Assembly: GCA_018401555.1 (NCBI GenBank)
Contig: JAGYKP010000092.1
Location: 32,065-96,064, forward strand
Length of the DNA: 64,000 nucleotides
Direction: 5' to 3'
Source of the DNA: Halomonas sp.
GTDB taxonomy: Bacteria; Pseudomonadota; Gammaproteobacteria; Pseudomonadales; Halomonadaceae
Shown here piece by piece: positions 27,133-42,234 of this stretch. A program made the translations under genes and the position numbers. Numbering within the stretch: the first letter of the stretch is position 1; every line of letters starts with the position of its first letter. The notes under the pieces were generated by a model. It ran no database searches, was not told the DNA's origin, and worked only from the letters and a program-made list of their open reading frames with translations.

Positions 27133-30734
<3,602 letters not shown>

Positions 30735-30738
<4 letters not shown>

Positions 30739-32123
30739 GCGAGGACCTGAACAAGGCACAGCACAACACGGACTACCGCGAGGTCAACTTCGACGGCCTG
30801 GTGGGTCCCACCCACAACTATGCCGGCCTGGCGCTGGGTAACGTGGCATCGATGAGCCATGGCGGCCTGGAAGCCAATCCCCGGGAGGGGGCCCTGCAGG
30901 GGCTGGCCAAGATGAAGGCGCTGATGGATGCCGGCTATGCCCAGGGGGTGCTGCCCCCCAGCAGCGCCGGATCTCGGCGCCCTGCGCGACCTGGGCTTCA
31001 CCGGCAGCGACGAGCGGGTGCTGGCGCGGGCCGCCGGCGAGGCGCCCCAGATCCTGCGCGCGGTGTGCTCCGCCTCCAGCATGTGGACCGCCAACGCCGC
31101 CACGGTGACGCCGAGCCTCGATGCCCCGGATGGCCGGGTGCACTTCACCCCGGCCAACCTGCAGTCGAGCTTCCATCGCTTCCTAGAACCTGCCACTACC
31201 GGCCGGGTGCTGGCGGCCATCTTCCGCGATGCGGGCCATTTCACCCACCATCCGGTGCTGCCCGCCACCCCGGCCTTCTCCGACGAGGGCGCGGCCAACC
31301 ATACCCGCCTGGCCGGCGACCACGGCGAGCCTGGGGTGCACCTCTACGTCTACGGTCGTACCGCGTTCGGCTGGGGCACCGAGGAGAGCCCGGCGCCGCG
31401 GCGCTTCCCGGCGCGCCAGACCCTGGAGGCCAGCCAGGCGGTGGCTCGTCAGCACGGCCTTGCCGAGTCGCAGGTGGTGTTCGCCCAGCAGCACCCGGAT
31501 GCCATCGACGCCGGCGTCTTCCATAACGACGTTATCGCGGTGGGCAACGGCCCGGTGCTGCTCTACCACGAGATGGCCTTCCTCGACGAGGCGGGCACCC
31601 TCGAGGCGCTGCGCGAGCGCATTAACGCGCCGCTGATCCCGCTGCGCATCCCGGGCGAGGCGGTGAGCCTGGCGGATGCGGTCTCCTCCTACCTCTTCAA
31701 CTCGCAGCTGCTCAGCAACCCGGACGGCTCCATGACCCTGGTGGTGCCCGGCGAGTGCCAGGAGAACGAGGCGGTCTGGCGCACCTCTGCAGGACCATCT
31801 GCTGGCCGGGGCCAATCCCATCGGCGAGGTGGTGGTCAAGGACGTCAAGCAGAGCATGCGCAACGGCGGCGGCCCCGCCTGCCTGCGCCTGCGAGGTGGT
31901 GCTCTCCGCCGAGGAGCGCGCCGCGCTCTCCAGTCGGGTGCTGCTCGATGAGGTTCTCTACGCCGAGCTGGTCGCCTGGGTGGAGCGCCACTACCGCGAT
32001 CGCCTCACCCCCGAGGATCTCGCCGACCCGGAGCTGGCCAGGGAGTCGTTGACGGCACTGGATGAGCTGAGCCAGCTGCTCGGCATCGGCAGCGTCTATC
32101 CCTTCCAGCGGGAGGGCGCGTGA
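30735..32123 (+). CDS. astB: N-succinylarginine dihydrolase, frameshifts near 30970, 31790 and 31890
   Basis: [93 protein letters not shown]. Confidence 0.96.
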
Positions 32124-33356: not shown

Positions 33357-34110
33357 GTGAACGGGCTGATCTACTGGTTGGACATGGCGGGAGTCATCGT
33401 CTTCGCGCTGTCGGGCGTGATACTCGCCTGCCGTTCGCGCATGGATCCCTTCGGCATGCTGGTGCTGGCCGCGGTGACCGGCATCGGCGGCGGCACCCTG
33501 CGCGACCTGGTGCTCGGGGTGCGACCGGTGTTCTGGGTCACCGACCCCACCTACCTGTGGGTCATCCTGGTCACGGTGGGGCTCGCCATCCTGGGCTTCC
33601 ACTATATCCACCGCCTGTCGCGTGGCTTCCTGCCCGTGGCCGACGCCTTCGGGTTGGCGCTGTTCGTGGTGATCGGTGCTCACAAGGCGCTCCAGCTCGG
33701 TACGTCCGGCCTGGTCGCGGTGCTGATGGGGATGATGACTGGGGTGGCCGGTGGCATGGTGCGCGATATGCTGGCCCGTCGCGTGCCCATGGTGCTGCGC
33801 GAGGAGATTTACGCCACCGCGGCCATCGCTGGTGGCATCGCCTATGTCGGCCTGGATGCCATGGGGGCACCCGTTCCCCTGGCCATTGCCCTCTCCCTGG
33901 CGACCACCCTCGGCCTGCGTCTGGCCGCCATCCACTGGCATCTGGCGCTGCCTACCTTCGCCTGGGTGGTGATCCCGAGATCTCCCGAGGCGTCGCCACC
34001 TCCCGGTGAGGAAGTGGCTTCGCCGGCCCCCCGCCGAACCGCCGCGGCCCAAGGTGCGGGTGCGCATGATTCGCCCCGACCAGTCACGGCGCAGGAAGAA
34101 CCGCTCATGA
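33357..34110 (+). CDS. TRIC/UPF0126 family cation channel-like protein (GTG start), frameshift near 33970
   Basis: VFALSGVILACRSRMDPFGMLVLAAVTGIGGGTLRDLVLG...GGMVRDMLARRVPMVLREEIYATAAIAG. Confidence 0.9.
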
Positions 34111-35165
34111 GCCGGCCGGATATCCACACCCGCTTGTTGTCATGGCTTGCCCTGTGTGTGCTGGCGCTGCAGCTCTCGGCCTGTGCCGTGCAGCCGTCCG
34201 ATGCGGACCCGGCCGAACGCCACCGGCTGGCGGCTGAGCAAATCCGGGCGACCTATGAAGCGGTGCTGCCCGAGCTCTCCACCGGCAAGCGCCGCCACTA
34301 CGCCCAGCGCCTCTACCGGGTGACCGGCGATGCGCGCTACCTGCCGGCCAACCGCGAGTACATGGCGCATCTGGGGGAGCGCCTCAAGGCCGAGATCGCC
34401 GAGTTGGCGGTGCCGGGGCAGGTCGAACGGCTCGCCAGGCAGAGCGTCGAGGGCTACTCGCGGCGCACCGAGAAGCAGCGTGCCCGGGCCGAGATGTTCG
34501 CCGAGTGGGAGGAGATTGCCTACGCCCGCGGCCTGCTGTTCCGGCTGGTGCAGGCGCACTATCACGGCATGCTGGACGAGATCCCCGGCCACGAGCGGGC
34601 GCTGGAGTACTTGGGAGACCTGCCCTGGGCAGCGTTCCTGAGCGACCCCGAAGTGCTGGGAGTGTATGCCGCCCAGGTCGCCAATCAGGTGCATTTCCTG
34701 CATCAGCTCGGGGTGATGGACCTGCGTCGTGAGGTGGAGGCTGCCTTCCGGCGGCGCTATCCCCCCGACACGCTGGCGACCCTGTCCACCGCGGAGTACC
34801 GCAACTGGCTCTACGGATTGACTCACTTCGTCATTGCGGCCAGCCGTTACTACCAGCAGGAAGTGGATGCCGAGGCGTATGCCTGGGTGCTTGAATCATT
34901 CGAGGCGCAGTCCGGGCGGATCCTGCGCGATGCCACCGAGGATATCCAGGCGGAGGTGGCGCTGAGCTTCCTGCTCACTGGTCGCGAGGGGCATCCGCTG
35001 GTCGGGCGGGTTCGCGATGCCCTGGCCGCAGCGGTGGACCCCGCCAGCGGCATGATTCCCTCGCCAGACGGCAGCACCGATCTGGAGAGGGGAGAGCACC
35101 GCAACGTGCTGGCGATCATGGTGCTGGGGTGGCAGGGGCGGCTGTATCCTGGGCCCTTGATGTAA
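34107..35165 (+). CDS. DUF3541-like lipoprotein
   Basis: Lipobox LQLSAC; AEYRNWLYGLTHFVIAASRYYQQEVD...; family name from recall. Confidence 0.65.
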   Translation: MSRPDIHTRLLSWLALCVLALQLSACAVQPSDADPAERHRLAAEQIRATYEAVLPELSTGKRRHYAQRLYRVTGDARYLPANREYMAHLGERLKAEIAELAVPGQVERLARQSVEGYSRRTEKQRARAEMFAEWEEIAYARGLLFRLVQAHYHGMLDEIPGHERALEYLGDLPWAAFLSDPEVLGVYAAQVANQVHFLHQLGVMDLRREVEAAFRRRYPPDTLATLSTAEYRNWLYGLTHFVIAASRYYQQEVDAEAYAWVLESFEAQSGRILRDATEDIQAEVALSFLLTGREGHPLVGRVRDALAAAVDPASGMIPSPDGSTDLERGEHRNVLAIMVLGWQGRLYPGPLM

Positions 35166-35171
35166 CCTCAG

Positions 35172-35987
35172 CTATACCCTTTCTGCCGTTGACATGGTTG
35201 CCGATGGCAGCCCCGAGATCTGTTCTGCTAGTTGGTTCTTGATGCAGAGATACATGGGGATAAGGTCTTCATGTATCTCCTTTTCGGCTCGAGAATGGTC
35301 GATGTAGTAAGCGCTTCTTCTGCCATGCATTTCAATGGGTTCGCCAACATTTTCGAAGTTGAATCCCGACATTGCCAGTAGTCTGGGTAGCCTGGACTCC
35401 ATCATTGCAAAGACGTGACGCCTTCCAGTAAGGCCTACCAGAGAGTAGGTTGCCAGGAAAAGTGAAATGATGATCCAGGGGAATGTTTTCTTGTCCTGTT
35501 CGGTGAATATATACCCTGTGCTTCTTGGGTCCAGGGTTTCATTTTTGATCGGTTTTTTTCGGAAGGCTCGAGCGATGGCAAATCGTGAGATCTCACAGAT
35601 TTCCGACTCTGGAAGCACTGATGGATGCAGCCATGGGTGGCTCAAACTACGACCACCATACTCTTGAAGCGGAAGCAGGTTTTCAGACCGCTGGGCATTG
35701 GGGTCAGGTAGTACAAGGCGAAGACACCCTGCCGCCAAGCCGGAAGCTCTATGCTCCAGGTAGCAATGAATCGAGTGCCTGTCATGAGCATCCAGCTCGA
35801 GACTCCTTTGGCAGAATGTTTCAGGCTGGTACCCGATTTCCTGGCAATACACATTAAACCTCAGCCTATATACCCGCTCCTTTTCGGCTGGGGTGGTTGC
35901 CAGCTTGAGAGAGTACTTGTCCAGGAAGGCCTCATGGATATTCCGCATGGGCATCACCCTGTTTTCCTTGGGGCTGTGTGTGTTCAT
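35172..35987 (-). CDS. PEP-CTERM/exosortase-associated-type N-acyltransferase (GNAT, FeeM/LuxI-like)
   Basis: YRLRFNVYCQEIGYQPE, ELDAHDRHSIHCYLEHRASGLAAGCLRLVLP, EISRFAIARAFRKK, ESRLPRLLAMSGFNFENVGEPIEMHGRRSAYYID. Confidence 0.85.
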   Translation of the reverse strand: MNTHSPKENRVMPMRNIHEAFLDKYSLKLATTPAEKERVYRLRFNVYCQEIGYQPETFCQRSLELDAHDRHSIHCYLEHRASGLAAGCLRLVLPDPNAQRSENLLPLQEYGGRSLSHPWLHPSVLPESEICEISRFAIARAFRKKPIKNETLDPRSTGYIFTEQDKKTFPWIIISLFLATYSLVGLTGRRHVFAMMESRLPRLLAMSGFNFENVGEPIEMHGRRSAYYIDHSRAEKEIHEDLIPMYLCIKNQLAEQISGLPSATMSTAERV

Positions 35988-38861
35988 GAGATCCCTTTAT
36001 CCTGTCCTGGTTGGCTGGTGCTGGTAGCATTTATAGGCATGCGGCTGAATGCTTCTTCGATCGGCATAGGCTTGCCTAGATAAAATCCCTGACCGTACGT
36101 TATGCCGTACTGGCGCAAGATCGGAATCAGCTCCTTGTGCTCAACAAACTCGGCTATTGCCTGTTTTCCGAAGCCGGTGGCGATATCGGCGATTGCCTTG
36201 ACGATAACGCGGCTATCGGCATCGATCGGCAGGTGGCGAATGAAACTACCGTCGATCTTGATGTAATCGACCGGTAGCTGGCCCAGGTAGTGGAAACTGC
36301 TGAAGCCGACCCCGAAGTCGTCCAATGCGGTCCGACAGCCCATTTCGCGCAGTGACTGCAGCACGCCACGGGCGGTGGAGAAGTCGGTAACCGCAGCGGT
36401 TTCGGTGACCTCCAGGATCAGCTGCTCGGGCATGGCGCCGCTGGCGGTGATCTCTTCGGCCAGATATTGTCTCAGGCCGTCATCGTGGAGCGACTGGCCT
36501 GAAAGGTTGATGGCAAGGCTGATGTTGCTATCGTTCAATCCCGCAAGTACCTGCAGAGAGTGGTGTATTACCCAACGATCGATCTCCAGAACCTGCCCAC
36601 TGCGCTCCGCCACCGGTATGAACGTGCCGGGTGAGACCAGCTCTCCCTGTTCGTCTCTCATCCTGATCAACACCTCGTAGTGCCGGATATCACGATCCTC
36701 CAGGCGCACGATAGGTTGAGCCATCAGTTCGAAGGCGTTCTCTTCAATGGCTCGATGAATGCGCTCTTCCCAGTAGACGCGCTCCTGGAGCTCGCCTCGG
36801 GCATCCTCCAGCGTCGAGAGGAGGTGCCAGCGCTGGCTACTCGAGGCCTTGGCCTTGTACATCGCCATATCGGCGCTGGCCATCAGGTCGATGGCATTGT
36901 CACCGTGAATCGGGAAGAGTGCGATGCCTATGCTGGCTGCGGCTCGGTGGCGTCTCTCGCCCACTTCGAGTGTCACTGTGGCGAGGATCTGGTTGACCTG
37001 CTGGGCGATGCGAGTCGCCAGGGTTTCGTCTGCGCCACGTAGCAGCAGGGCGAACTCGTCGCCGCCCAGTCGTGCCAGGGTCCCGCGATGTCCCAACTCC
37101 TCGCCCAACACCGTGGCGACCTTGCGTAGCAGTTGATCCCCGGCCTGGTGGCCGCTCAACTCGTTCACATCCTTGAACTGGTCCAGGTCCAGCAACAGCA
37201 GGGCTCCCGGATAGCCCCGCTTCAAGGCCTCGCCGAGAGCCTCCTTGAGGTAGCGTCTGTTATAGAGCCCTGTCAGGGGATCACACTCGGCGAGCCAGGT
37301 AAGGCGGGCCTCGGCGATCTTGCGTTCGGTGATATCGAGGCCGACGGAAATCCTTCCGAGCGGCTCGCCGGGAGCACCTGGCAACGGGGCGTGGTACCAG
37401 GCGATGGTGTGTTGCTGCCCTCCGACGGTGATAAGCAGGCGTTCTTCCTGGCCCTTGCCTTCGGCACCAGTAAGGGCCCGCTTCTCGGTACCGAAGACGT
37501 CGTCAAAAAGCCGCTTGAGCAGAGATGCCTCTGTGACTGCCATGACCGACAGGGCATAGTCGTTGACCAGGGTGATCCGGCCATCGGCATCCTGGGTGAT
37601 GATGAATACCCGGGCGGTATCGAGCAGGCTGCCGATAAAGTCGCGTTCGTGGGCCAGTTCATCCACACGCTGGGCCAGCTGCTCCCCGCGCGACCTGACT
37701 TCTCCTTCCAACGTTTCCAACTGGTTGGCCAGGCGCAGGGTCGAACCCTCGAGGATGTCGATCTCATCCGACAGTCGGCTGTCGGGGTGGGGGATAGCCG
37801 CCCGAGCCATGGCGAACTCTCCCTGAGCCAGGCTCGGCAGGATGCTGGAGAATGCGCCGCAGCCGGGCCATGGGGCTGAGCAGGATGGCCAGCAGGAGCA
37901 GTTCCGCGGCTAGCCAGCCGCCGAGGCCGATGACCGCCAGGGTGCGGGTATCCTGGCGAATCGCACCAATCTGATCGGTGATGTCGTTGGTGAACAACAC
38001 ATAGCCGGTAGTGCGCCGGTCGCCGTCCTCGTCCATGCGTACCGCACTCACTTCGATATCACGAGCCCCGTAACGAAAGCGGTAGGGGCGTTCGGTGAGG
38101 CTGCGAAGGCTGGTCTCCGTGGAAGCCTGCTGCAGAGCCGGCAGACTTTCGCTTTGCCCGGTCAGGGCGATCAGTTGTCCCTGCCAGTCAGATAGCTGAC
38201 GCTCTACGGGGAGCTCGCCGCTCTGCATTTCTCCGGTCACCAGAAGCCCTACGTCGCCCTTGGCAATCTGGTGGGCCTGGCGCATGACGTCGGCCAGCGA
38301 GCGCGACAGGATCACTACCCCGGTGCTTCGACCCTCGACCAGCACTGGTACAGCGGCATACTGACGGCAGTCGCTCGAGCAACGCAGGGCAGTAAGAGGT
38401 GTTTCGGACTCGATGACCTGGCGAACCCACCGCTGTACCGGTCGTCCATTCCCTGACTGGGGTGCCCCCCACTCGGCCACCTGCCCACCGCTGGCATTGA
38501 AGATGAGGATCTCTTCGACACCCGATTCCAGCTGTAGTGTCGGCCACTGTGGTTCCAGGGTCTCTAGCAGTGCTTCACCCTCTCGGTCCGGCAGGGCAGC
38601 GCCCAGGCCCTGGGTTGAGGCTACCAGTGAAGCAAGCTGGCGAACGCTCTCCTCGGAGCGTTGAAGGGCCAGGTGCATCTCTCCGGCCTGGCGTAGTGCG
38701 CTTTCGTTGCGGCTCTCTTCGAACTGTCTTGTGAGGTTGGCGTGGCCAACCCAGGAGAAGGCCAGCACCAGGCCAAGCACCAGCAGACTGCTCAGCGCGA
38801 TAACGCGCCAGGTCAGGCTGAGGCGGTGGCGTGGTGATTTGGATTGACTCGCTGAACTCAT
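35984..38861 (-). CDS. Membrane sensor GGDEF-EAL protein with periplasmic (dCache-like) domain and HAMP-like/PAS segments; frameshift near 37820
   Basis: ARLGGDEFALLL; AQPIVRLEDRDIRHYEVLIRM; LEVTETAAV; LDDFGVGFSSFHYL; DYIKIDGSFI; N-terminal TM, periplasmic region with RCSSDCRQY, second TM; two ORFs joined. Confidence 0.9.
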
Positions 38862-38893
38862 CTCGCCGAGGCTTCCTGGTCCAGTGCGGGCGC

Positions 38894-40111
38894 CTAGAAG
38901 CGCAGGGAGAGCTGAAAGAGCATCATGTTCCAGCGGCGACTTGTCTCTGAGGGGGCAGGATTATCCTGCACGGGTAGCCACCCCGTTCCATCGACATGAT
39001 GATATTCGGCCGCCAGCATCAGGCGGTGACTCACATTCCACTGCAGCCCTAGCGTGAGGTCATCGGCGTACTGGCTGTGGGCGGGGCCAGCTCCACTGGC
39101 TTCGTAGGCACTGCCTGAGCGATCGTCACGATTGCTGGTCAAGCTGTCATAGCGCACCAGCCACTGCCAGTTGTCATGGAAGCGGCGAGTATATTGTAGA
39201 TACCAGCTTTCACCGGTTACATCGAAATTGAGGAAGGGGTTGTCAAAGCCTTCCAGCTTGGAGCTGCGAATCGCATACTCCCCGGTCAGGCTCCAGTGTT
39301 CTGAGTTGTACTGAAGTGAGAGTACCCATGGGACGAACTCGAAATCACCATTGTTGAGCACCGGGTCGTGCGATTCGAACTTGGCCTTGGCACTTGCGGC
39401 GCTCAGTGCTGCAACGATTCGTCCCCCATCGTGTTCGTACTTGACCTGTGCGATGGCTGAGTCACGGGGTTCGAGTTCACCCGGTGCATCCTCAAGCCGC
39501 ATTGTCCTGCGCAGATCATCTCCCGCCTGGGCTTGGCCTATACCGACCTGAGTCCTGAATGTGCCACTGGGCAACATCTCTTCGTAATACAGGCTGACGC
39601 CATCGCCGGATAAGCCAAGCGAACGGGTCCGGTCAAAGTAGATGGATTGTGGGAGCAGTATGCTCGGGCGCGTGAAGGCGACATCACGGGTCTGGTTGTA
39701 GAAGCCGAAAGGGTTCTTGAATCGGCCTACTTGCATACCAACCGTGCGTTGCTGATTGGAGATCATCTGATAATCGATGATTCCGTAATCCAGAACCGGT
39801 TTGGCATCGTTGCCATCCCCCCCGGCACGCCGGCTGAGCACCTGGGCCGCCAGAAGTACATTTTCGTGGGGGCGAAGAGAGACATTGGCCCCGATCTCGG
39901 TGTACTTCAGGCTGCCGCCGTCCTCGCTGCTGGGACCGAAGAAGTTGTTATCGTCGGTGATCACCAGCGCCTGGCTGAGGAAGCCATGCATCTGCAGGGT
40001 GTCCAGCACCTGCTCGCTGGCGAGTGCCGGTGCCGACAGGCTCGTCAGCGCGGTCGCCAGGACGAGCGCGCGTCGCCCTTCAATCCATTGAAATGACTTG
40101 GATACGGTCAT
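38894..40111 (-). CDS. Outer-membrane porin-like beta-barrel protein
   Basis: Signal peptide ending SAPALA; alternating amphipathic strands; NPFGFYNQTRDVAFTRPSILLPQSIYFD; C-terminal ...LFQLSLRF. Confidence 0.8.
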   Translation of the reverse strand: MTVSKSFQWIEGRRALVLATALTSLSAPALASEQVLDTLQMHGFLSQALVITDDNNFFGPSSEDGGSLKYTEIGANVSLRPHENVLLAAQVLSRRAGGDGNDAKPVLDYGIIDYQMISNQQRTVGMQVGRFKNPFGFYNQTRDVAFTRPSILLPQSIYFDRTRSLGLSGDGVSLYYEEMLPSGTFRTQVGIGQAQAGDDLRRTMRLEDAPGELEPRDSAIAQVKYEHDGGRIVAALSAASAKAKFESHDPVLNNGDFEFVPWVLSLQYNSEHWSLTGEYAIRSSKLEGFDNPFLNFDVTGESWYLQYTRRFHDNWQWLVRYDSLTSNRDDRSGSAYEASGAGPAHSQYADDLTLGLQWNVSHRLMLAAEYHHVDGTGWLPVQDNPAPSETSRRWNMMLFQLSLRF

Positions 40112-40511
40112 CCAGGTACTCCCTCTCCAGATAGCCCATTGCGCCTGGGGTGGTGGCAATACGCTCGAGCATCTCGGCCTGGTGTCTCACGCGGTCCGGC
40201 GCCTGGCCGGTGCCGGAGAAGACCATGCGGTCCCATGCCAGCTGCAGTTGATGGGGATAGACGGTCAGGCGCTCCTTGACGAAGCGCTCGTGCACCGGGT
40301 GGTCGTTGGGCAGCACGAAGACCCGGGCGGCCTGGCCGTTCGGCCAGGTGCGCTGGCGCATGGCGAAGATGGCCCGAGTGGTGTCGCGCGTCAGGCGTTG
40401 GGTGGTGACGTCCGGATGGGCGACCAGCAGCACGGCCGGCTCGTCGGCAACGGCCTTTATCCCCATCAGGGGCAGCAGGCAGAGCAACAGGGCGGCTCTC
40501 AGCCACGCCAT
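40080..40511 (-). CDS. Secreted phosphate-binding (PstS)-like substrate-binding protein
   Basis: Signal peptide; LTRDTTRAIFAMRQRTWPNGQAARVFVLPNDHPVHERFVKERL...AMGYLERE. Confidence 0.75.
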   Translation of the reverse strand: MAWLRAALLLCLLPLMGIKAVADEPAVLLVAHPDVTTQRLTRDTTRAIFAMRQRTWPNGQAARVFVLPNDHPVHERFVKERLTVYPHQLQLAWDRMVFSGTGQAPDRVRHQAEMLERIATTPGAMGYLEREYLDDRIQVISMD

Positions 40512-40755: not shown

Positions 40756-42234
40756 TCAGCCGAAGACCTGGAAGGTGCCGGCGTTGAGCCACAGGTGAGT
40801 GGCGATACTGGCCACATAGCCCAGGGCGATCACCGGGGCCCAACGCAGGTGGCCCATGAAGGTGTAGTTGCCGCGGGCCTGCCCCATCAGTGCCACACCG
40901 GCGGCGGAACCGATGGAGAGCAGGCTGCCGCCGACACCGGCGGTGAGGGTGATCAGCAGCCAGTGGCCGTGGGACATGTCGGGCTCCATGGTCAGGACCG
41001 CGAACATCACCGGGATGTTGTCGACCACCGCCGAGATCAGGCCCAGAGCAATGTTGGCGTTGGTGGCTCCCCAGCCACTGTAGAGCGCCTCGGAGAGCAT
41101 CGCCAGATAGCCCATGTAGCCCAGGCCGCCCACGCACATCACCACCCCGTAGAAGAACAGCAGGGTGTCCCACTCGGCGCGTGCCACACGGTTGAAGACG
41201 TCGAAGGGCACCACGCTACCCAGCTGGGCGAGCTTCTTGTCGTCGCCGCGGCGGGCATAGCGAGTGCGCTTCTTCTCCAGCGAGCGGGGCAGGGTGCGGC
41301 GCAGGTAGTAGCCGAAGAACTGCAGGTAGCCGAGACCGGTCATCATGCCCAGCACCGGCGGCAGGTGCAGGAAGGTGTGGCAGGCCACGGCGGTGGCCAC
41401 GGTGAGCAGGAACAGCGCCACGATGCGTCGTGCACCACGCTTGAGCCAGACCTCTTCCTCGAGGCTGTCCGGCTTGCGATTCTTGATGAACAGGGTCATC
41501 GCCACCGCCGGAATCAGGAAGTTGACCAGCGAGGGCAGCAGCAGGACGAAGAATTCCTGGAACTGGATCATGCCGGCCTGCCATACCATCAGCGTGGTGA
41601 TGTCGCCGAAGGGGCTGAAGGCACCGCCGGCGTTGGCCGCCACCACGATGTTGACGCAGGCCAGGTTGATGAAGCGCTTGTCGCCCTCGGCGACCTTGGT
41701 CACCACCGCGCACATCAGCAGGGCGGTGGTCAGGTTGTCGGCGATGGGGGAGATCACGAAGGCCAGGCCGCCGGTGATCCAGAACAGCTGGCGGTAGGTG
41801 AAGCCCTTGCGCACCATCCAGCTGCGCAGCACGTCGAAGGCGCGGCGCTCGTCCAGGGCGTTGATATAGGTCATCGCCACCAGCAGGAAGAGCATCAGCT
41901 CGGTGAATTCGAGCAGGGTGGCGCGGAAGGCGTGTTCGGCCTCGGTGGGCATGCCGGCCTGCACGTAGACCCAGCCGATCAGCGCCCAGATGATGCCCGC
42001 GGCGACCAGAACCGGCTTGGACTTGCGCATGTGCAGCTTCTCCTCGCCCATGACGAGCGCATAGGCGAGGACGAAGATACTCACGGCGAAAAGGCCGACC
42101 ACGGAGTTGGTGAGGTCCAGCTCGCCCGTCACGGCGAAGGCCGCGGGGCTGAACAGCAGGCAGACAAGCACGAGGCATCCCGACCACCAGGCGGTATGCC
42201 GGGGCCGTAGGGTTGGGTATCCGAAGGATGGCAT
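40756..42234 (-). CDS. nhaD: Na+/H+ antiporter NhaD
   Basis: GGLAFVISPIADNLTTALLMCAVVTKV, NIVVAANAGGAFSPFGDITTLMVWQAG, FYGVVMCVGGLGYMGYLAMLS, SIGSAAGVALMGQARG. Confidence 0.96.
   Translation of the reverse strand: MPSFGYPTLRPRHTAWWSGCLVLVCLLFSPAAFAVTGELDLTNSVVGLFAVSIFVLAYALVMGEEKLHMRKSKPVLVAAGIIWALIGWVYVQAGMPTEAEHAFRATLLEFTELMLFLLVAMTYINALDERRAFDVLRSWMVRKGFTYRQLFWITGGLAFVISPIADNLTTALLMCAVVTKVAEGDKRFINLACVNIVVAANAGGAFSPFGDITTLMVWQAGMIQFQEFFVLLLPSLVNFLIPAVAMTLFIKNRKPDSLEEEVWLKRGARRIVALFLLTVATAVACHTFLHLPPVLGMMTGLGYLQFFGYYLRRTLPRSLEKKRTRYARRGDDKKLAQLGSVVPFDVFNRVARAEWDTLLFFYGVVMCVGGLGYMGYLAMLSEALYSGWGATNANIALGLISAVVDNIPVMFAVLTMEPDMSHGHWLLITLTAGVGGSLLSIGSAAGVALMGQARGNYTFMGHLRWAPVIALGYVASIATHLWLNAGTFQVFG

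Follow-up and report, generated by a model that had tools for sequence, protein, structure and literature searches.

What could join a predicted N-acyl amino acid synthase to an outer-membrane porin and a cyclic di-GMP (c-di-GMP) sensor in a single gene cassette, and which of these proteins belong together? The question is raised by a locus of Halomonas sp. (GCA_018401555.1) contained in a window of 64,000 nt, the whole stretch of DNA analysed here, which represents positions 32,065 to 96,064 of the forward strand of contig JAGYKP010000092.1. Reading of its ORFs places four adjacent minus-strand genes at 35172-40511, encoding in order a PstS-like protein, a predicted 16-strand porin, a dCache-PAS-GGDEF-EAL sensor and a GNAT-fold acyltransferase (GNAT). 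A preliminary description of this DNA had reported four same-strand genes with these borders, and the ORFs bear it out: the PstS-like reading frame ends at 40080, within the barrel gene (ATG at 40111), and the barrel gene stops at 38894, before the sensor start at 38861. The overlap between the PstS-like and porin genes is conserved, with an identical offset in 65 of 72 loci. The same description pointed to an ATGA shared by the sensor stop and the GNAT start, which is present here at 35984-35987 but is not conserved among relatives. Their stop-to-start distances range from about -29 to +133 bp, and translational coupling of sensor and GNAT through a conserved ATGA is therefore rejected. In a promoter and terminator scan, shuffled sequences gave more sites than the real one, which has a single weak promoter-like site and three terminator-like ones. 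Outside the cassette, a gene for an NhaD Na+/H+ antiporter lies upstream (40756..42234, minus strand; NF038006, 760 bits) and a gene for a DUF3541 protein lies downstream in convergent orientation (33915..35165, plus strand; PF12060, 260 bits). Elsewhere in the window, ast-like genes at 28.2-32.1 kb are scattered over several frames.

The cassette is conserved in the Halomonadaceae beyond what chance would produce. A scan with the PstS-like protein recovered 80 Halomonadaceae loci, and on contigs long enough to tell, the genes nearly always run PstS-like, porin, sensor, GNAT. Across 201 sampled Halomonadaceae genomes, strong PstS-like matches and GNAT matches occur in the identical 116 genomes and both are missing from the other 85, as judged by comparing the two genome lists by eye; four further genomes of the sample hold only a distant PstS-like paralogue. 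All four genes were found together at 152 loci. Co-occurrence in relatives was the point on which the preliminary description had staked its own refutation, and the prediction survived. The NhaD and DUF3541 flanks vary among relatives, NhaD being missing from the upstream position in many that carry the cassette. We found no paper on this four-gene cassette in the literature.

The sensor is recognised by EAL (PF00563, 231 bits), GGDEF (PF00990, 135 bits), PAS_4 (PF08448) and dCache_3 (PF14827, 79.9 bits) domains. It had been taken for one gene, which does not hold for the window: an N-terminal part with a membrane helix and the periplasmic dCache_3 domain (37764..38861, minus strand) and a C-terminal PAS-GGDEF-EAL part (35984..37810, minus strand) are separate ORFs in different frames, and a single ORF is present in 70 of 74 relatives. 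The window copy thus contains a frameshift or an assembly error near 37.76-37.84 kb. An assembly error is likely, because the assembly, in 106 contigs, reaches a completeness of 77% and other genes of the window are also frame-broken; the alternative is a real lesion in this strain. Among 134 relatives, the GGDEF motif is found in 126, the EAL signature YE(V/I/A)L(L/I)R in 96 and DDFGxGxS in at least 132. With these residues intact, the sensor is a predicted bifunctional c-di-GMP enzyme, and it is encoded together with a periplasmic binding-type protein whose own family match is weak.

That protein (40080..40511, minus strand; ORF open to 40589) is small, with a single lobe, and overlaps the start of the porin gene. 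Its score against PBP_like_2 (PF12849) is 16.9 bits, below the cut-off of 27. The family is matched weakly at E<=0.1 by 15 of 25 sequences, and a weak profile match links the protein to PstS 4exl (E 0.036). Hence the PstS-like identity proposed earlier stands as a resemblance to one PstS lobe, while the Pfam score falls short of an assignment.

The GNAT (35172..35987, minus strand) scores 191.6 bits against TIGR03694, above the curated cut-off of 111.95, and 54 bits against PF13444; all 26 aligned members match TIGR03694 at E<=0.001. Residues R43, E64, D66, R90 and E132-x-S134-R135 are invariant in these 26 sequences and include a putative catalytic Glu, equated with that of FeeM from the motif only. 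PF13444 was the only Pfam family reported at E<=0.01, with no match to the LuxI-type autoinducer synthase family, and profile similarity to the AHL synthase 3p2f is weak (E 3.7e-4). The family memberships predict that the enzyme probably makes an N-acylated product. The Neisseria meningitidis homologue NmNAT produces N-acyl lysines and ornithines (PMC9762135), Nas enzymes produce N-acyl tyrosines, and surfactant activity is known for N-acyl amino acids (PMC4897644). The acyltransferase had at first been described as exosortase-associated. No exosortase (PF09721) scored above cut-off in any of 101 family genomes (100 relatives and the strain's own genome, which is 77% complete), so the exosortase link is rejected and the name 'exosortase-associated' is no guide to function here.

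The porin (38894..40111, minus strand) has no Pfam barrel family above cut-off. A single-sequence fold reached a pLDDT of only 32 and was replaced by an AlphaFold2 model from a 73-sequence alignment, which predicts 16 strands (mean pLDDT 73, pTM 0.73) and so upholds the outer-membrane barrel of the preliminary description. The top Foldseek matches of the model are the general porins DcaP (6eus), OmpT and OprP, with TM about 0.5. Loop L3 comprises 35 residues and is nearly invariant, model confidence being low there, and the C-terminal residue is F. As modelled, the protein has the 16-strand barrel, long L3 and C-terminal aromatic residue expected of a general porin.

The evidence on which proteins belong together comes from the way in which cassettes differ. 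The GNAT has repeatedly been replaced by alleles about 35-50% identical, with the remaining cassette 83-97% identical; in pairwise comparison of 64 cassettes, species pairs whose GGDEF-EAL regions are 91-98% identical often have GNATs just 35-50% identical. Divergence of the porin is limited to its middle, residues about 166-345 (39077..39616, minus strand), which spans strands S6-S13 and loops L4-L7, and this block is replaced together with the GNAT although the conserved 2.8-kb sensor gene separates the two. For example, the cassettes L081 and L082, which come from sister species and pair ~96% identical sensors with different GNAT types, are about 85-98% identical at the DNA level save for two tracts, one in the porin and one in the GNAT. 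The pairs L057/L072 and L040/L047 present the mirror image, in which the DNA of porin block and GNAT is more alike than that of the intervening sensor.

This association persists when the relatedness of the other parts is taken into account. A partial Mantel test of GNAT against porin block, conditioned on sensor, dCache and PstS-like identity, gave r 0.71 in 64 cassettes (0 of 5000 permutations) and r 0.63 in 134 dereplicated cassettes (0 of 2000). The correlation was 0.50 in a set from a second source, the species of which partly overlap the first set, and 0.34 in other genera alone (0 of 2000 permutations in each). The rest of the porin, the dCache and the GGDEF-EAL region retain small residual correlations with GNAT of 0.08-0.17 in the 134 cassettes, and for PstS-like r lies between -0.02 and 0.08. 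Co-variation of GNAT and dCache, which a dCache domain binding the variable signal ought to show, was rejected, with r -0.07 in 64 and 0.08 in 134 cassettes. Because neither dCache nor the PstS-like protein co-varies strongly with GNAT, the two probably do not themselves recognise the molecule's variable part.

Comparisons of tree topology lead in the same direction. In 37 genomes, the closest neighbours by GNAT and by sensor are not the same; the porin block goes with the GNAT in 22 of them and with the sensor in 2. A quartet test free of identity thresholds was confined to quartets in which the GNAT and GGDEF-EAL trees conflict. The porin block groups with GNAT in 77% of these and with the sensor in 12%; for the rest of the same porin the figures are 10% and 81%, for dCache 4% and 95%, and for PstS-like 16% and 72%. 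The flanks group with the sensor as well (NhaD 65%, DUF3541 80%), and since both agree with it, GNAT and porin block are the moving parts. Sister pairs of the sensor tree, which constitute independent comparisons, show a mean block identity of 60% in 10 GNAT-swapped pairs against 89% in 29 unswapped pairs, with no overlap between the groups and no significant difference in sensor identity.

The coupling is tight, not perfect. No pair with GNATs at least 75% identical has a porin block below 75% (0 of 76 pairs). In the other direction, six pairs have porin blocks 84-88% identical with GNATs at 38-40% (L062 or L074 against L040, L047 or L063), and a further pair has a block at 81% and a GNAT at 54%. 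The 134 cassettes fall into 66 GNAT clusters and 57 porin-block clusters. What the cassettes show directly is that the genes occur together in a fixed order and that GNAT and porin block have been replaced in concert more than once, while the sensor, the PstS-like protein, the other porin parts and the flanks have a different history that they share. The synthase and the candidate recognition part have a common history unlike that of neighbouring genes, as in a polymorphic synthase-receptor pair.

Such a pattern could in principle arise from recombination, if multi-crossover transformation delivered both tracts from the same donors without functional coupling. The tract borders do adjoin highly conserved sequence, in porin L3 and near the 3' end of the sensor gene, as homologous recombination needs. 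Passive hitch-hiking is nevertheless highly improbable in our estimation, since the physically nearer PstS-like gene, N-terminal part of the porin, dCache and DUF3541 do not follow the GNAT, the distant porin block is involved in all 10 independent swaps, and the mirror cases retain both tracts while the sensor differs.

Within the porin, and presuming normal porin topology for the inside or outside assignment of loops, the contrast between cassettes with the same and with different GNATs is strongest in L4, L5 and L6, and L1, L2 and L8 show little GNAT effect. Because lipid-facing positions and periplasmic turns of the block vary too, the exchanged part extends beyond a binding surface, as recombination between conserved borders would produce if it moved the whole block at once. 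In GNAT-less loci, too, this part of the porin evolves faster at comparable identity levels, and there the block was no less variable than where a GNAT is present; the GNAT-less pairs are so divergent that this second comparison carries little weight. Porins are common phage receptors, and the inclusion of extracellular loops L4-L7 in the block would agree with diversification under phage or predator pressure, the GNAT altering the cell surface and both being exchanged as surface types with no ligand-receptor relation. This explanation appears improbable to us: the block is exchanged in step with a cytoplasmic acyltransferase whose gene lies beyond a conserved one of 2.8 kb, L1, L2 and L8 hardly take part, and the cassette matched none of the defence-system models.

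From the co-inheritance pattern we infer that the porin block may recognise or transport the GNAT product. The preliminary description had linked an acyl-metabolite enzyme to a chain of binding protein, barrel and c-di-GMP sensor, with c-di-GMP turnover driving synthesis. The link itself is strengthened by the co-inheritance of GNAT and barrel; the direction proposed for it is not, as the allele data tie specificity to these two proteins. A specificity relation between GNAT and barrel fits either a synthase-receptor or a synthase-exporter pair, with c-di-GMP as the output.

In the case of an exporter, the porin would be the outer-membrane exit for the N-acyl product, a surfactant or matrix lipid, the block would match that product, and the sensor would measure something else and control production. 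The matching of GNAT and porin is explained equally well in this way, the known surfactant character of N-acyl amino acids suits it (PMC4897644), and so does a sensor dCache that does not co-vary with GNAT. The distribution outside the family bears on this alternative. In a class-wide sample of 274 genomes, the porin profile matches 24 and the GNAT profile 55. A PstS-like/porin pair without an adjacent GNAT occurs at 28 loci in other families, most with a dCache-GGDEF-EAL gene, and an exporter for a GNAT product would be idle there; it is the sensor trio, and not the GNAT, that accompanies the porin throughout. A role purely in export is hence rather unlikely, though it deserves serious consideration. 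In eight loci outside the Halomonadaceae (L177-L183, L277) a GNAT does stand beside the PstS-like/porin pair, either upstream in the same orientation or in divergent or convergent placement, and these several arrangements suggest more than one attachment. The distribution fits a sensory trio (PstS-like/porin/GGDEF-EAL) to which a matching synthase may have been attached. On this reading the porin is more likely, though not proved, to act as a receptor than solely in export.

Known systems provide partial parallels. Vibrio parahaemolyticus ScrABC likewise co-encodes a signal-making enzyme, a periplasmic binding protein and a GGDEF-EAL sensor, the signal controlling c-di-GMP (PMC11315295), so synthase-plus-sensor cassettes feeding c-di-GMP are already known. 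Its signal maker ScrA is an aminotransferase, in contrast to the candidate GNAT here; the system has no outer-membrane porin, and its published account, as consulted, reports no matched allele swapping. In the TIGR03694/PF13444 N-acyl amino acid synthases, such as NmNAT, the same family above curated cut-off and the same GNAT domain are found (PMC9762135); they are described as PEP-CTERM/exosortase-linked, unlike the present enzyme, which has no exosortase and whose partner is a porin-c-di-GMP module. We found no dedicated outer-membrane partner for these synthases in the literature. The NAS-PilZ fusions Nas343 and Nas354 physically tie an N-acyl amino acid synthase to c-di-GMP biology, but the proposal for them is that c-di-GMP controls the synthase via PilZ, with no porin or sensor cassette (PMC4897644). 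In the tripartite systems YfiBNR and HmsCDE, an inner-membrane c-di-GMP enzyme is reported to be governed by proteins of the outer membrane or periplasm. These two systems differ in having neither a signal synthase nor a porin barrel and in belonging to other protein families. The Vibrio cholerae NspS/MbaA system responds to norspermidine, lacks a linked synthase-porin pair and uses a binding protein of another family. It is alike in that a binding protein in the periplasm informs a c-di-GMP enzyme of a small molecule outside the cell (PMC5646818). The ComQXPA pherotypes of Bacillus are distinct communication groups that originate in the diversity of a signalling locus (PMC4408185). That is a Gram-positive peptide system of adjacent genes, whereas here a conserved gene splits the variable parts and the candidate receptor is a porin. 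In ComQXPA, signal maker and receptor vary jointly.

The cassette most readily suggests the following mechanism. The GNAT would make an N-acyl signal, as its family implies, and the face of the porin formed by S6-S13 and L4-L7 would recognise this product outside the cell or during its passage across the outer membrane. By analogy with ScrABC and NspS/MbaA, the conserved half of the porin and the PstS-like periplasmic protein might then relay the porin's state to the dCache domain of the inner-membrane sensor, which would set GGDEF/EAL activity and thereby c-di-GMP. Different GNAT-porin pairs would represent 'dialects', each strain answering its own molecule. We place even weight for and against the proposition that the cassette serves signalling and carries its own polymorphic GNAT-porin specificity pair, relayed to c-di-GMP. 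The fuller proposal is a Gram-negative system resembling quorum sensing, in which a matched porin reads a TIGR03694-made N-acyl signal at the surface and relays it through the periplasm to c-di-GMP, with dozens of 'dialects' arising by coupled replacement; we put it forward tentatively, with slightly less than even confidence. To our knowledge, porins are not classical signal receptors, which counts against the receptor reading.

Each protein family involved is already known, and we found no description of a matched synthase-porin pair in the literature. If the receptor reading is true, the cassette would represent a distinct kind of cell-cell signalling and a candidate route by which a lipid signal perceived at the surface may reach c-di-GMP. 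Here the sequence record itself points to the partner, as half of a porin changes with the synthase across a conserved gene in ten independent sister pairs. The relation between GNAT and porin can be tested in culturable Halomonas. The 66 GNAT and 57 porin-block clusters constitute a natural library of matched pairs for locating the residues that determine specificity.

The sensor gene of the cassette is read in the window as two ORFs in different frames (37764-38861 and 35984-37810, minus strand). Arginine-catabolism-like (ast) genes at 28218-32123 on the plus strand likewise appear to be split among several overlapping frames, and this common pattern points to indel errors in the assembly. 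For the GGDEF domain of the sensor (35984-37810), the common variants among the relatives show no RxxD product-inhibition site where one would be expected ahead of the GGDEF motif; the cyclase may therefore operate without this feedback.

The GNAT acyltransferase gene (35172-35987) has a GC content of 50.5%, compared with 67.7% for the window, and among 134 dereplicated relatives the mean GC is 51.9% for GNAT versus 57.9% for the sensor. Many of the Halomonadaceae genomes searched also encode, at a site apart from the cassette, a second PstS-like protein that is a distant paralogue (E 1e-11 to 1e-19).

Several loci depart from the cassette layout seen in the window. The cassette of H. sulfidaeris (L098, 10001-16228) is apparently fragmented, with porin, sensor and GNAT matched in pieces only and the spacing enlarged. 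Locus L196 (7461-10956), from another gammaproteobacterial genome, carries one GGDEF-EAL gene with two tandem PstS-like/porin pairs upstream. At L191, L193 and L194, PstS-like/porin pairs occur without an adjacent GGDEF-EAL gene and are adjoined by uncharacterised ORFs of about 310-370 aa, which could represent another output.
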